Assembly (NCBI RefSeq): GCF_000621545.1
Contig: NZ_JHYA01000004.1
Coordinates: 186,001 to 250,000 of the forward strand
Length of the DNA stretch: 64,000 nucleotides
DNA from: Anaerovibrio lipolyticus LB2005
Lineage (GTDB): Bacteria; Bacillota; Negativicutes; Selenomonadales; Selenomonadaceae
Direction of reading: 5' to 3'
Made by a program: the position numbers and the translations under genes. Below the pieces are notes generated by a model that was not told where the DNA came from, ran no database searches, and was given only the letters and a program-made list of their open reading frames with translations. Within the stretch, counting starts at the first letter, position 1; the number at the start of each line of letters is the position of its first letter. Shown here in pieces: positions 1-9,086 of the stretch.

Positions 1-806
1 AATCCATTACAGCGGTACCGATTTTAGATAGTCGTTATAGAATTATAGATATTGTTATACTGAAGGAGATTAGTAATGCATCCTTATCGCATAAAAGTCT
101 CAAAGGCGTACCAGTAGTTATAATGGCTGGTGGCAAAGGTACCCGCCTTTACCCGTTTACCAAAATCCTCCCTAAGCCTCTTATTCCTATTGGGGACACT
201 CCTATCGTTGAGCGTATAATTGACTGTTATGTAGAATACGATATTAATGAATATTACATGACAGTTAATTATAAAAAAGGGATGTTGCGTTCCTATTTTA
301 ATGATTTGTCACCTCAATACAAGGTAAAATTTGTCGAGGAAGATAAGCCTTTGGGAACTGGTGGTAGTATCAAACTAATAGAGGATAAGTTTGATAGGCC
401 TCTTTTTGTAACGAATTGTGATGCATTGATAAGGGCAGATTATGCTGATATATATGAGCATCATATTAATTCGGGTAACGATATTACCATGGTCTCAGCA
501 TTAAAAAATATTACGGTTCCTTATGGTGTTGTTAATTCAGGAGTGAATGGTGAGTTGCTTTCCATGGAGGAAAAACCAACACTTTCCTATTTTATTAATA
601 CTGGTATGTATATCATTAATCCTGAAACTATTGATTTGATACCAGCTGATACCTTGTTCCACATGACTCATTTGGTGGAAAAAGTAATTAAGAGTGGCGG
701 CAAGGTTGGTACGTATCCTATAAGTGAGGATTCATTCCTGGATATGGGTGAGTTTGAAGAAATGAAGCGAATGGAGCAGAAGTTGAATATAATTTCTGAG
801 AAATGA
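1..806 (+). CDS. ptmE: Nucleotidyltransferase with N-terminal CBS region, PtmE type (5' end outside window)
   Basis: The reading frame is open from base 3, so the gene begins before the window and the ATG at 123 is internal. The residues before that ATG (VPILDSRYRIIDIV and after) look like the end of a CBS domain. Then comes the nucleotidyltransferase signature MAGGKGTRLYPFTKILPKPL and later an NCDALIRADY metal/sugar site. CBS plus NTP-transferase is the architecture of PtmE, which makes GDP-GlcN from glucosamine-1-phosphate at the start of the Campylobacter legionaminic acid route. The next four genes are the later steps of the same route and overlap or nearly touch this one, which supports the role. 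The exact nucleotide specificity is inferred from context. Confidence 0.85.
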   Translation, partial: SITAVPILDSRYRIIDIVILKEISNASLSHKSLKGVPVVIMAGGKGTRLYPFTKILPKPLIPIGDTPIVERIIDCYVEYDINEYYMTVNYKKGMLRSYFNDLSPQYKVKFVEEDKPLGTGGSIKLIEDKFDRPLFVTNCDALIRADYADIYEHHINSGNDITMVSALKNITVPYGVVNSGVNGELLSMEEKPTLSYFINTGMYIINPETIDLIPADTLFHMTHLVEKVIKSGGKVGTYPISEDSFLDMGEFEEMKRMEQKLNIISEK

Positions 807-1378
807 TTATGGAAGATATTGTGATAGTTGGCTTTGGTGGTCACGCGAAAAGTGTGGCTGACTGTATTGAACGGGAAGGAAAATACCATATAGTTGGTTA
901 CACTGATTTACAAAAAGCAGACTCGCAGTATTCCTATATGGGAACTGATGATGAGCTTCAAGCTATTTTTGATAGTGGTATAAAAAATGCTGCTATTGGT
1001 GTCGGCTATATGGGGAAAGGTGAAATCAGGCGGCAGCTTTATAGTAAGTTGAAAGACATTGGTTTCAAATTACCAATTATTGTAGATCCATCAGCTAGTG
1101 TCTCTGATACAGCTGCAATCGGGGAAGGGTCTTTTGTGGGTAAAGGTGCAATAATAAATACTGAGGCTGGTGTTGGCAAGATGGTTATTATCAACACAAA
1201 GGCTCTTGTTGAACATGAATGTGTTGTGGGGGATTATGCCCATGTGGCTGTTGGGGCAGTATTGTGTGGGCAAGTTAAAGTTGGAGAAGCTGCCTTTATT
1301 GGAGCGAATGCCACAGTGATACAGTGTCGTGAGGTAAAGGGTAATGCCATCATTCCGGCGGGAGCTACTATTAGATAA
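803..1378 (+). CDS. Sugar O-/N-acetyltransferase, NeuD/PglD/LegH family
   Basis: A 191-residue protein. It has an N-terminal Rossmann-like substrate domain (IVIVGFGGHAKSVADCI) and a C-terminal left-handed beta-helix made of hexapeptide repeats from about residue 95 (PSASVSDTAAIGEGSFVGKG). PglD, NeuD and LegH share this build and acetylate amino-sugar nucleotides or sialic-acid-like sugars with acetyl-CoA. The histidine expected to act as base lies in EHECVVGDYAHVAVGA. The ATG overlaps the stop of the upstream nucleotidyltransferase; an ATG six bases downstream is an alternative start. Position in the legionaminic cluster favours the LegH-type 4-N-acetylation step, but O-acetylation of the finished nonulosonate is equally possible from sequence alone. 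Confidence 0.85.
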   Translation: MIMEDIVIVGFGGHAKSVADCIEREGKYHIVGYTDLQKADSQYSYMGTDDELQAIFDSGIKNAAIGVGYMGKGEIRRQLYSKLKDIGFKLPIIVDPSASVSDTAAIGEGSFVGKGAIINTEAGVGKMVIINTKALVEHECVVGDYAHVAVGAVLCGQVKVGEAAFIGANATVIQCREVKGNAIIPAGATIR

Positions 1379-1389
1379 GGACGATTTTT

Positions 1390-2388
1390 ATGCAAAAGGT
1401 ATGTATTATCGCTGAAGCAGGCGTAAATCATAATGGTGACATAACAACTGCTAGAAAAATGGTTGATGCTGCTAAAAAAGCTGGTGTTGACTATATTAAA
1501 TTTCAGACATTTGTGCCAGAGAAGCTAGTTTCCCGTTATGCTGAAAAGGCGGAGTATCAAAAAGAGACAACTGACTCCGCCGAATCCCAGTTGGATATGC
1601 TAAAAAAGTTGTCATTATCCAATAATGAATTTGTGTCTTTAAAAGCGTACTGTGATGAGATTGGAATAGGCTTCATCTCTACTCCTTTTGATTTGGAAAG
1701 TATTGATTTCCTGGAAAAGTTGGAAATGGATTTTTGGAAAGTTCCATCCGGCGAGATTACCAATTTGCCATATCTTGAAAAAATAGCCGGAACGGGGCGC
1801 AAAGTTATTCTTTCCACAGGTATGAGTGATATTCAGGAGATTAAGGAGGCTGTCAAGGCCTTGGAGAAAGGCGGTACACCGGAAATAATTCTTCTTCATT
1901 GTAATACGCAGTATCCTACCCCATTTGAAGATGTAAATTTATCAGCTATGAATACTATTGCTCAGGAGACGGGCAAGCCTGTTGGTTATTCTGACCATAC
2001 CAAGGGGATTGAAGTACCTATTGCTGCGGTGGCTATGGGGGCAACAGTTATTGAGAAACATTTCACTTTGGATAAAACGCTGGAAGGCCCTGACCATAAG
2101 GCTAGTCTTGAGCCAAATGAGCTTACACAGATGGTAAGTGCTATTCGGCACATAGAAAAAGCTGTAGGTACCAGTATAAAAGGAACTACAGCTTCTGAAG
2201 TTGGCAACAAAAGCATTGCTAGAAAAAGTATTGTTGCGGCATGTAAAATTGTCAAGGGTGAAATTTTATCAGAAAAAAATATAACCACCAAACGACCTGG
2301 GAATGGTATTTCTCCAATGAAATGGTATGAGATTATTGGTAAAGTTGCTCCAAGGGATTTCAGTGAAGACGAGTTGATAGAACTATGA
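1390..2388 (+). CDS. legI: N,N'-diacetyllegionaminate synthase (NeuB family)
   Basis: A 332-residue cytosolic enzyme that condenses phosphoenolpyruvate with a 6-deoxy-diacetamido-mannose-type sugar to give a nine-carbon nonulosonic acid. Residues 1-270 form the NeuB TIM barrel, with IAEAGVNHNGD at the start and HCNTQYPTPFEDVNL and GYSDHTKG further on. The last 60 residues are the SAF antifreeze-like lid (RKSIVAACKIVKGEIL). The FEDVNL stretch is more typical of legionaminate/pseudaminate synthases than of sialic acid NeuB. The 3' end overlaps the next start by four bases (ATGA), showing translational coupling. Confidence 0.88.
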   Translation: MQKVCIIAEAGVNHNGDITTARKMVDAAKKAGVDYIKFQTFVPEKLVSRYAEKAEYQKETTDSAESQLDMLKKLSLSNNEFVSLKAYCDEIGIGFISTPFDLESIDFLEKLEMDFWKVPSGEITNLPYLEKIAGTGRKVILSTGMSDIQEIKEAVKALEKGGTPEIILLHCNTQYPTPFEDVNLSAMNTIAQETGKPVGYSDHTKGIEVPIAAVAMGATVIEKHFTLDKTLEGPDHKASLEPNELTQMVSAIRHIEKAVGTSIKGTTASEVGNKSIARKSIVAACKIVKGEILSEKNITTKRPGNGISPMKWYEIIGKVAPRDFSEDELIEL

Positions 2389-3548
2389 AAAAGATAGCTG
2401 TAGTTACAGCAACAAGAGCTGAATATGGACTGCTGTCGCCTGTTATAAAGAAATTGCGGTCGCTTGAGAGTGCAATGTTTAAGGTCGAGTTAATCGTGAC
2501 GGGAACCCATCTTAGTGAACATTATGGTATGACTATCGATGATATTGATGACCGTATTGACCATAAAATACCTATATCAGTGCAATCAGCTTCTTGTGCA
2601 GACATTTCCTCTAATCAGGCAGAAGCTTTGGTTAAGTTCACGGATTTGTTTGCGGCAGAAAAATATGATGGTATTGTTATACTTGGAGACCGTTATGAAA
2701 TGCTTGCTGTAGCTATTGCGGCCGGTAACACCCATACCCCAGTTTTTCACCTGTGCGGTGGTGACACAACAGAAGGTGCCTTGGATGAATGGATTAGACA
2801 CTCCATAACCAAGATGAGCTATCTCCATTTTGTTACCAATGAGGACAGCAGGAAACGGGTTGTTCAGCTTGGAGAAAATCCTAATCGCGTTTTCAATTAC
2901 GGTTCTACCAGTATTGACAACATACTCAATGTTGCTGATATGACAAAAGCTGAAGTGTTACAGAGTATTGGCGTGGATGATTGTAAATATGCTCTTTGCA
3001 CCTATCATCCGGTAACAATGGAAGATAGCTGTGTTGATGGACATATAGAGTCTTTCCTTGCGGCGATTAAGTCTTTCCCACAATTGCAGTTCATTGTAAC
3101 CAAATCCAATGCGGATCAGGGCGGTGCAAGGATAAATGAGCTGTTGGATGAAGCGGAAAAGAGAATAGATAATCTTCATGTGTATACTTCTCTTGGGGTG
3201 AGGAGATATCTTTCACTGATGAAATTCGCTGAATTTGTTCTGGGCAACTCATCAAGCGGGATAATTGAAACCCCAGCCTTCCATGTGCCAACAGTGAATA
3301 TTGGTGATAGGCAGCGCGGTCGTTTACAGTCTGAAAGTATAATAAACTGTGGTGAAGATACTTGTAGTATTGCCATAGCTATAAATAAAGCAATGTCTGC
3401 TGCTTTTAGAGCAGTGTGTGATTCAGTTGTCAGTCCATATGGTGCTGGGAATACTTCTGAAAAAATAGCTAAGAAGATTCATGAAGTTGTCAACATAGAT
3501 AATATAGATCTTAAAAAGAAGTTTTTTGACATTGAGGCAAATATATGA
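2385..3548 (+). CDS. legG: Hydrolysing UDP-sugar 2-epimerase, NeuC/LegG type
   Basis: A 387-residue enzyme of the hydrolysing UDP-GlcNAc 2-epimerase family. It inverts C2 and removes the nucleotide to give the mannose-configured substrate for the neighbouring synthase. Family marks are the N-terminal VVTATRAEYGLLSPVI, the LGDRYEMLAVAIAA segment, HLCGGDTTEGALDEWIRH and the nucleotide-binding LGNSSSGIIETP near residue 290. Length fits NeuC/LegG (about 380). The gene overlaps both neighbours by four bases. Specificity for a diacetamido-trideoxy sugar rather than UDP-GlcNAc is inferred from the CBS-type nucleotidyltransferase and LegI-like synthase in the same operon. Confidence 0.87.
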   Translation: MKKIAVVTATRAEYGLLSPVIKKLRSLESAMFKVELIVTGTHLSEHYGMTIDDIDDRIDHKIPISVQSASCADISSNQAEALVKFTDLFAAEKYDGIVILGDRYEMLAVAIAAGNTHTPVFHLCGGDTTEGALDEWIRHSITKMSYLHFVTNEDSRKRVVQLGENPNRVFNYGSTSIDNILNVADMTKAEVLQSIGVDDCKYALCTYHPVTMEDSCVDGHIESFLAAIKSFPQLQFIVTKSNADQGGARINELLDEAEKRIDNLHVYTSLGVRRYLSLMKFAEFVLGNSSSGIIETPAFHVPTVNIGDRQRGRLQSESIINCGEDTCSIAIAINKAMSAAFRAVCDSVVSPYGAGNTSEKIAKKIHEVVNIDNIDLKKKFFDIEANI

Positions 3549-4225
3549 AAAACATTGCGATTATTCCAGCCAGGAGCGGTTCTAAAGGCTTGAAGAATAA
3601 AAATATAAAACTGCTAAATGGGAAACCGTTAATGTGGTATTCTATTCAAGCAGCTATAAAATCTGACTGTTTTGATGAAGTAATGGTATCTACAGATAGC
3701 GCAGGGTATGCTGAAATAGCAAAAGAATGTGGTGCAAATGTGCCATTCCTAAGAAGCGCTAAAGAATCCACAGATACGGCATCATCTTGGGATGTTGTTA
3801 GAGAAGTACTTGCTAATTATCAAGACGAGGGAAAAGTTTTTGATAATGTGATGTTATTACAGCCCACATCACCTTTACGCACAGATAAAGATATTGTGGG
3901 GGCGTTTAATCTTATGCAAGAAAAAAAAGCCAGCACCATCATTGGGGTATGTGAAACAGACCATTCTCCGTTGTGGTGTAACATTTTGCCTGAAGATGGT
4001 AGCTTAAATGGATTTATTCGACCTGAAGCAAAAAGTGCCTCTGGGCGGCAGGGATTACCAACTTATTACCGTATTAATGGAGCTATATATTTGACCAAAG
4101 CAGTATCTGATATTGGCAAAGATTTGTACAATAACCATTGTTTTGCATATATAATGCCTCGGAATCGTTCAATAGATATTGATACCGAACTTGATTTTAA
4201 AATAGCAGAGGCCCTTCTGAAATAA
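3545..4225 (+). CDS. legF: CMP-nonulosonate cytidylyltransferase (NeuA/LegF)
   Basis: A 226-residue cytidylyltransferase that activates the nonulosonic acid with CTP for glycosyl transfer. The N-terminal IIPARSGSKGLKNKN is the CTP-binding loop. LLQPTSPLRTDKDI and the terminal SIDIDTELDF are the other conserved CMP-NeuAc synthetase segments, carrying the metal-binding aspartates. It is a single-domain protein without the C-terminal esterase seen in some NeuA proteins. It is the last gene of the leg operon; the next gene is on the other strand and ends 15 bases away. Confidence 0.88.
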   Translation: MKNIAIIPARSGSKGLKNKNIKLLNGKPLMWYSIQAAIKSDCFDEVMVSTDSAGYAEIAKECGANVPFLRSAKESTDTASSWDVVREVLANYQDEGKVFDNVMLLQPTSPLRTDKDIVGAFNLMQEKKASTIIGVCETDHSPLWCNILPEDGSLNGFIRPEAKSASGRQGLPTYYRINGAIYLTKAVSDIGKDLYNNHCFAYIMPRNRSIDIDTELDFKIAEALLK

Positions 4226-6760: not shown

Positions 6761-6804
6761 AAAAACAAGCTGCTATCACATAAAAGTGATTGCAGCTTGT
6801 TTTT
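6761..6804. terminator. Bidirectional intrinsic terminator between GT4 and nrdD
   Basis: A near-perfect 18-bp stem with one mismatch. The arms are AAAAACAAGCTGC then ATCAC, and GTGAT then GCAGCTTGTTTTT, with a short A-rich loop. The A run on one side and T run on the other let it work for both converging genes. Confidence 0.9.
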
Positions 6805-6821
6805 ATATTGCTAATATTCAA

Positions 6822-9086
6822 TTACTCAAACACAGGTCTCTTCACAATCTTATGTCCAGTGATGATTTCCTTCCGTTTGCAGTGTGGGCATTCGTTTTCA
6901 ATAATGCCAGTGTAGCCACACACAGGGTCACGGTCAACAGGGTGGTTAATGGAGAAGTAGCCCATGTTGGCATCGTGCATGGCACGAACCAGAGCCTCAA
7001 AGGCCTTCACATTCTTGGAAGGGTCGCCGTTCATTTCTACATAAGCGATATGCCCCGCATTTTCCAGCTCGTGGTAAGGTGCCTCGATGCGAATTTTATC
7101 CAAAGCCTTAATGTCATAATATACAGGCACATGGGAGCTGTTGGTCATATAATCTCTGTCGGTAACTCCCGCAATTTTGCCGAATTTCTTGCGGTTTGCC
7201 CGTTGGAACTGACCGGCAGTGGACTCGGCTGGAGTACCAAAGCAGGTCCAGTTCATACTTTCTGCCTTGGTATATTCATCAGTCTTCTGACGGATATGCC
7301 CCACGATTTCCAGCCCCAGCTTCTGGGCCTCCTCAGACTCGCCGTGATGCTTGCCGATGAGAGCCACCAGGCACTCAGCCAGACCACAGAAACCAATGGA
7401 ATAGGAAGCGTGCTTCAATACTTCCTCAATGGAGTCGGTATTCTTCAGCTTATCGCTGTCCATCCAGATACCCTGTCCCATAAGGAACGGATAGTTATAG
7501 ACGTGCTTATGCTTAATGGTCTGCAGTCTGAAGAGAAGATAGTCGTGGCTAATCTGAATGTATTTATCCAAGAGGCACCAGAACTTATCCATATTTCTGT
7601 CAGCCTCCAGGGCCAGCATAGGCAGATTAATGGTGGTAAAGGAGAAGTTACCCCTGCTGCCCACCTCGCTAGGGCCATTTACATTACCAATAGTGCGGGT
7701 ACGACAGCCCATGGTGGCAATTACGCTGTTGTAGTTGCCAGGCTTGTAGTACTGGAGATTATATGGAGCATCCACATTTACGAAGTTAGGGAACAATCTT
7801 TTGGCAGAGGTCTTGCAGGCCTGCTGGAAAAGATCATAGTTAGGATCCCCAGGATTGTAGTTAACCCCGGACTTAAGCTGGAATACGGAAATAGGGAAAA
7901 TAGCGGTTTCACCATTACCCAGACCGCTCATAATAGCGTTCATAACCTCCCGCATGGCAAGGCGTCCCTCAGGAGAGGTATCCATACCATAGTTAATGGA
8001 GCTGAATGGCACCTGGGCACCAGCGCGGGAATGGAGGGTGTTGAAATTGTGAATCAGTGCCTCCATAGCCTGATGGGTTTCCTCAGTGGTATCATCACAG
8101 GCCAAGCGATAAATATTGGCAGCATCCAGCCTTAACTCCGGACTGGTCTCCATAATATCTGCAGGCAGCACCTTGCCCAGGGCTTCAGTAATAGCCTTAA
8201 TGTTATCTTCCGTTGCTATTGGTTCACCATCGGTAAAGGTGCAGCGGTCGTAGTCCATAGCTGCCATAAAGGCCTTACGGAATTCCTTGGCAGCGATTAA
8301 CTTTTCTCCGCCAAAACGATAAAGGCAGGCCTTGTAGGCTTCATCCGCAATAGCCTTTTTAAAGGTCTTGCGCACACCCTCAGCCATGGCGTAATCAAAG
8401 GCGTTGATGGACTGGCCACCAAACATATCATTCTGGTTGGACTGAATTGCAATACAGGCCAAAGATGCGTACGCGCGGATGGAATTTGGCTCACGCAGGA
8501 AGCCGTGGCCCGTGGAAAAGCCACCATGGAACAGCTTCAGCAAATCAATCTGACAGCAATTCAGGGTAATAAGGGAGAAGTCCTTGTCGTGGATATGGAT
8601 ATAATTTTCTCTGTCGGCCTTGGCAAATTCCTCAGGCAACATATAGTTATCCACGAAATGCTTGGCACCCTCGGCACCTAATTTAAGCATAATACCCATT
8701 GAGGCGTCGGTGTTTATATTGGCGTTGTCACGCTTCATGTCTGAGTCCACAGCATCAGCGAAGAAAATATCCCTGTAGCTGTTCATCAGATGCTTCTGGG
8801 CCTCACGGCGATTAGCATGACGCTGGCGATACATGATGTAGCGCTTGGCTATCTCATAGTAATCCTGCTCCATGAGGGTCTTCTCAACAATATCCTGAAT
8901 ATCCTCTACGTTAATATTTTCCCAGTTCTCAATGGCGGACTCCACCTGGTCCACCACTTTCTGAATATCCCTTGTAGATAAGGAATCATTTACAGCCTTG
9001 CTGGCTCCTGCAATGGCGTTAAAAATTTTGGAGGAATCGTAGTCCACCACAACGCCGGAGCGCTTTATAACATGCTTTAGCTTCAT
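6822..9086 (-). CDS. nrdD: Anaerobic ribonucleoside-triphosphate reductase, atypical C-terminus
   Basis: A 754-residue class III ribonucleotide reductase, which makes deoxynucleotides without oxygen. Residues 1-90 are an ATP-cone (VIKRSGVVVDYDSSKIF). The barrel follows, with GGFSTGHGFLREPNSIRAYA, AIQSNQNDMFGGQSINAFD and ATMGCRTRTIGN. The C-terminal finger has DPVCGYTG and ECPHC (Cys723, 733, 736). The protein ends 18 residues after the last cysteine, and I cannot find the RxxGY-type glycyl-radical motif expected after that finger; the nearest match is ITGHK. The reading frame closes normally 18 bases before a terminator, so no frameshift is apparent. No nrdG activase gene lies beside it. Confidence 0.93.
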   Translation of the reverse strand: MKLKHVIKRSGVVVDYDSSKIFNAIAGASKAVNDSLSTRDIQKVVDQVESAIENWENINVEDIQDIVEKTLMEQDYYEIAKRYIMYRQRHANRREAQKHLMNSYRDIFFADAVDSDMKRDNANINTDASMGIMLKLGAEGAKHFVDNYMLPEEFAKADRENYIHIHDKDFSLITLNCCQIDLLKLFHGGFSTGHGFLREPNSIRAYASLACIAIQSNQNDMFGGQSINAFDYAMAEGVRKTFKKAIADEAYKACLYRFGGEKLIAAKEFRKAFMAAMDYDRCTFTDGEPIATEDNIKAITEALGKVLPADIMETSPELRLDAANIYRLACDDTTEETHQAMEALIHNFNTLHSRAGAQVPFSSINYGMDTSPEGRLAMREVMNAIMSGLGNGETAIFPISVFQLKSGVNYNPGDPNYDLFQQACKTSAKRLFPNFVNVDAPYNLQYYKPGNYNSVIATMGCRTRTIGNVNGPSEVGSRGNFSFTTINLPMLALEADRNMDKFWCLLDKYIQISHDYLLFRLQTIKHKHVYNYPFLMGQGIWMDSDKLKNTDSIEEVLKHASYSIGFCGLAECLVALIGKHHGESEEAQKLGLEIVGHIRQKTDEYTKAESMNWTCFGTPAESTAGQFQRANRKKFGKIAGVTDRDYMTNSSHVPVYYDIKALDKIRIEAPYHELENAGHIAYVEMNGDPSKNVKAFEALVRAMHDANMGYFSINHPVDRDPVCGYTGIIENECPHCKRKEIITGHKIVKRPVFE

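Follow-up and report, generated by a model that had tools for sequence, protein, structure and literature searches.

An nrdD gene of Anaerovibrio lipolyticus LB2005 raises the question of how a class III ribonucleotide reductase can work when its catalytic subunit has no glycyl-radical loop. The gene (6822..9086, reverse strand) lies in the window, by which we mean the whole stretch of 64,000 nucleotides analysed. The original prediction held that its product lacks a usable glycyl-radical motif, and was silent on how the enzyme works. Class III reductase is essential in the anaerobes of the Selenomonadaceae, and its radical is described as residing on its own C-terminus. We consider it very likely that the reductase is split here into a catalytic NrdD and a trans-acting small glycyl-radical protein, sGR, derived from a spare part; the evidence is comparative only, with no binding, EPR or activity data.

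A truncated NrdD with its catalytic residues kept

The 754-aa product meets the criterion of a class III NrdD catalytic core in both sequence and fold: it scores 942 bits against NF005497 (cut-off 764), and its AlphaFold2 model (pLDDT 86.7) has Prevotella copri NrdD as its top Foldseek match in the PDB (8p2c, E 8e-52). An ATP-cone (PF03477, E 1.8e-21) occupies residues 4-91 (8814..9077, this and the following features all on the reverse strand). Invariant in our alignment of 46 NrdDs (A4), and kept here, are the NxN flap motif Asn121-Ala-Asn123 (8718..8726), which has been described for P. copri NrdD (PMC11226230), the barrel cysteine Cys177 (8556..8558) and, in the MGCRTR of the finger loop, Cys461 (7704..7706), the expected thiyl-radical cysteine. 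The role of the barrel cysteine is known from the NrdD family.

What is absent is the C-terminal RRxTGY radical glycine on the same chain. The PF13597 match covers only model positions 1-531/562, and the last cysteine, Cys736, is 18 residues from the end, as predicted, with only KRKEIITGHKIVKRPVFE beyond it. This tail (6825..6878) stops where ITGYL should start: intact NrdDs in the alignment read FERIRR|ITGYLVG at this point, and the absent radical loop is RRITGYLVG. The claim that no frameshift explains the missing motif also held, as none of the three frames downstream of the gene encodes a radical loop. A sequencing error at the 3' end is excluded because the window-type orthologues of relatives end at the same place. 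The truncation is thus real. For the terminator claimed after the stop, reading of the DNA gives a hairpin with T runs on both strands, a probable terminator, at 6761..6806 past the TAA; the same reading suggests that the converging glycosyltransferase gene probably shares it.

Two further points raised by the original prediction did not survive as signs of decay or of a radical site. Its count of only three clear finger cysteines was correct, the zinc-ribbon ligands being Asp720, Cys723, Cys733 and Cys736 (6879..6929), with Asp720 at the first-cysteine position of the four-cysteine fingers of short NrdDs. Fused, intact NrdDs of the subgroup (L007-L012) have the same D+3C ligands, which are therefore normal there and not decay of the finger. 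Gly744 (6855-6857), named as a possible functional radical glycine, aligns with the linker before FERIRR rather than with the RRITGYL glycine, and is missing from a second NrdD of the genome, described below.

Elsewhere in the window, near nrdD, the open reading frames at 123-4225 (nucleotidyltransferase, acyltransferase-like, NeuB-, NeuC- and NeuA-like) appear, from sequence alone, to resemble a nonulosonic/sialic acid set.

The missing loop is encoded by a second locus

A search of the genome for a second nrdD, for nrdG and for a separate small glycyl-radical protein, as had been suggested, finds all three about 50 kb outside the window. They lie on the same contig (G000:C4), ~57 kb from the window nrdD, in the order second nrdD, sGR, nrdG. 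The sGR gene (P0001; G000:C4:135717-136019) is an open reading frame of 101 aa, with translation probably starting at the second Met to give 94 aa; it carries the missing loop, and its C-terminal end is KFERIRRITGYLVGTIDRWNNAKRSEEHDRVKHGLN. It thereby meets the criterion, set by YfiD/GrcA, of a stand-alone small protein with a glycyl-radical loop. The criterion of an NrdG activase is met by a 165-aa NrdG-like open reading frame directly behind sGR, the start of which overlaps the end of sGR; relatives are arranged alike. The second NrdD (P0002, 756 aa) is 52% identical to the window NrdD, and its truncation falls at the same column of the alignment. On the P. copri NrdD chain (8p23), the match to the window NrdD runs as far as residue 706 and that to sGR covers residues 707-738, and therefore the window NrdD and sGR jointly make up one NrdD.

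This genome, which is rated 100% complete, yielded no NrdD-type glycyl-radical loop besides that of sGR. Dependence on another class of reductase was considered and rejected, as a search for class I/II enzymes (PF02867, RTPR) found none in the genome; with no such enzyme in a complete genome, class III must work, with the radical on sGR.

The sGR protein falls outside the GrcA/PFL-type Gly_radical family. It has no match to GrcA or PF01228 at E up to 1, its significant matches being to NrdD families, and none of the libraries searched has a family dedicated to it. When sGR is modelled by itself, its N-terminal beta-alpha-beta-beta domain is confident (pLDDT ~90) and the radical loop is loose and of low confidence (pLDDT ~60-70). 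The N-terminal domain is without a Pfam family and without a fold match in the PDB at E < 0.001, and the idea that it was copied from the C-terminal region of NrdD is unsupported (hhalign probability < 1%).

It could be argued that sGR only repairs NrdD cleaved by oxygen, and that the window NrdD obtains its radical by another route, for example through a remodelled Gly744. In favour of this are the presence of sGR in genomes with intact NrdD (see below) and the retention of Gly744 across window-type orthologues. Against it, no other NrdD-type loop is present in the genome, and Gly744 falls in the linker of intact NrdDs, has no Tyr-Leu after it and is lacking in the operon paralogue. This explanation can be set aside almost entirely.

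Distribution in the Selenomonadaceae

Truncated NrdDs are found in 65/69 of the Selenomonadaceae genomes sampled. Among these 65, sGR is listed in 60 (that of G155 is picked up by the A3 profile alone). For four (G116, G174, G177, G183) its presence is deduced from how many matches they gave, and in one, G195, which also has a fused NrdD, an insertion interrupts it. Two genomes were not counted: in G172 the NrdD runs off its contig and in G175 no NrdD was seen. In the genomes with only a fused NrdD (G096, G131), sGR is absent. In the class sample, one fused NrdD is the sole match in 54 genomes (counted by hand), which therefore have no sGR at that sensitivity. The site of truncation, the location of the loop on sGR, the conservation of that loop and its co-occurrence with truncated NrdD are thus shown at the sequence level. 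Where a genome has NrdD of one length only, two loop types can be distinguished, a VGT-type with long NrdD and an S-type with short NrdD.

By our count a truncated NrdD is the only reductase in 50/69 genomes of the family. Roughly half of the family genomes have no NrdD besides one of the window type. In these sGR is on another contig or distant, the separation being 429 kb on the single contig of G023 and 250 kb on that of G160; sGR directly precedes nrdG in all five unlinked cases examined (L036, L038, L040, L041, L053).

These data bear on whether the window nrdD could be a duplicate in decay, with its C-terminus lost and only the operon copy working. The existence of a second NrdD and the lack of NrdR boxes or a neighbouring nrdG at the window copy would be consistent with this. 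However, close pairs of window-type genes have dN/dS of 0.02-0.04 (~0.03), the operon copy stops short at the corresponding point, all catalytic residues of the window NrdD are kept, and the window type is the only NrdD in many genomes, these single-copy genomes arguing strongly against decay. We regard decay as all but ruled out.

Several peculiarities of these genes were observed along the way. The G195 insertion (L187:662-1722; G195:C135:16150-17210) sits exactly at the radical glycine (RRITG | YLVG); it is ~0.7 kb and has an HNH-endonuclease-like open reading frame, as in self-splicing introns, with no match to Rfam at gathering scores. Large insertions are also seen in the NrdD genes G189:C2:43649-46507, G193:C16:7326-10784, G191:C233:8269-11526 and G197:C147:17827-20818, with open frames of 1078-1230 aa; these could be inteins. 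Extra diverged sGR copies occur in L047, L048 and L050 (G015, G001 = Anaerovibrio slackiae), with no nrdG match nearby. In several Selenomonadaceae there are sGR paralogues (L188:1381-1734, L192, L193, L194, L195) that keep the N-terminal domain and FERIRR and are missing the ITGYL loop, the one in L188 adjoining an Rrf2-type regulator and a cysK-like gene. Conceivably, such loop-less paralogues are regulators occupying the same site.

NrdR boxes and the partner of the window NrdD

The consensus of the NrdR box is established knowledge and was used for scanning. Tandem pairs of boxes lie upstream of Anaerovibrio's own operon (second nrdD-sGR-nrdG); they precede sGR-nrdG in 7/7 loci and the sole window-type nrdD in 3/5, with at most 1/1000 dinucleotide shuffles as good. 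No NrdR boxes are found before the window nrdD or its orthologues in two-copy genomes.

A third explanation is that sGR serves the operon NrdD only, the window NrdD having another partner or a regulatory role. Operon linkage, the absence of NrdR boxes at the window gene and the mere 52% identity of the two NrdDs speak for it. Against it, there are genomes with a single sGR and no NrdD other than a window-type orthologue, where NrdR boxes precede both the orthologue (3/5) and every sGR-nrdG examined, and both Anaerovibrio NrdDs stop at the same alignment position. We find this explanation very improbable. Nevertheless, because the window gene is without NrdR boxes and outside the sGR operon, the pairing of sGR with the window NrdD in Anaerovibrio itself is only inferred from relatives whose sole NrdD is of the window type.

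A proposed two-component class III reductase

In the split reductase that we favour, the window NrdD would supply the ATP-cone, the barrel with the NxN flap, Cys177, Cys461 and the zinc ribbon, and sGR would supply the glycyl-radical loop and the C-terminal tail. NrdG is predicted to make the radical on the sGR glycine. With either NrdD, sGR may then dock at the zinc ribbon and the mouth of the barrel, a step for which there is no complex structure, and the glycyl radical of sGR would turn Cys461 into a thiyl radical. Docking or activation is the probable function of the N-terminal sGR domain. That the window NrdD and sGR together reduce NTPs via a glycyl radical, and that sGR restores activity, are likewise inferences without biochemistry. 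A likely advantage of such a division is that oxygen would destroy a cheap, replaceable protein of 94 residues and not an NrdD.

The closest whole enzyme is P. copri NrdD (8p23; PRK07111 subgroup), with which the system shares the ATP-cone, barrel, MGCRTR cysteine, NxN flap, zinc ribbon, NrdG partner and fold of the whole model; in Anaerovibrio, however, a separate chain carries the radical loop and C-terminal tail. YfiD/GrcA, the spare part of pyruvate formate-lyase, can replace the large enzyme's C-terminus (PMC8683613; in vivo context PMC12338860) and resembles sGR in being a small, autonomous protein that joins a glycyl-radical loop to an N-terminal part of its own. In contrast, sGR has an NrdD-type loop, has no GrcA family match and is encoded with nrdG, and whereas YfiD/GrcA is a repair part, sGR in Selenomonadaceae is apparently an obligate partner. 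In the literature searched, spare parts have been validated for pyruvate formate-lyase only, with PMC8683613 merely speculating on other enzymes. In the split class II NrdJa/NrdJb (PMC9669993) a C-terminal part of a reductase is also on a second chain, but the class is another and so is the part split off. Phage nrdD, broken by introns, inteins and endonuclease genes (PMC3653736), is similarly coded in pieces; those are interruptions of one protein, while in Selenomonadaceae two conserved proteins are encoded apart, sGR with a new N-terminal domain. We found no published split NrdD of this kind in the literature searched, although subscription papers were mostly outside the search, so absence is not proof. 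If the enzyme is obligately two-component, it would to our knowledge be the first glycyl-radical enzyme in nature to have its radical on a separate protein at all times.

Origin of the proposed split

Outside the family, sGR-like proteins occur beside intact NrdD in Clostridia, Erysipelotrichaceae and Coriobacteriia, as in Ruminococcus flavefaciens FD-1, Anaerotignum sp. MSJ-24 and Adlercreutzia hattorii; in these examples there is no nrdG match near sGR. By analogy, an sGR next to an intact NrdD would resemble a spare part of the YfiD type. No full-length sGR was found in phage and plasmid records. RRITGYL is intact in 117/117 of the small proteins collected, which holds by construction because the set was gathered with that motif. 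On a quick tree (SH-aLRT only), truncated and fused states of NrdD switch at least seven times across well supported branches. The Desulfovibrio MAG G501 (L164-L167) has two truncated NrdDs and two loop open reading frames of 71 and 76 aa, and apparently represents an independent split, mis-binning not being ruled out. The likeliest course is that the spare part came first and the built-in NrdD loop was then lost repeatedly, a direction that is inferred.

For annotation, a truncated NrdD of this kind is at risk of being wrongly called broken. The natural split means that the catalytic and radical parts should be separately purifiable, so that radical installation, docking and transfer can be studied singly. 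In a bolder reading, which we think likely, the sole deoxynucleotide route of most Selenomonadaceae would be an obligately two-component enzyme, in which glycine-less NrdDs share one diffusible sGR made together with NrdG, and which would have arisen repeatedly from NrdD spare-part proteins widespread in gut anaerobes.
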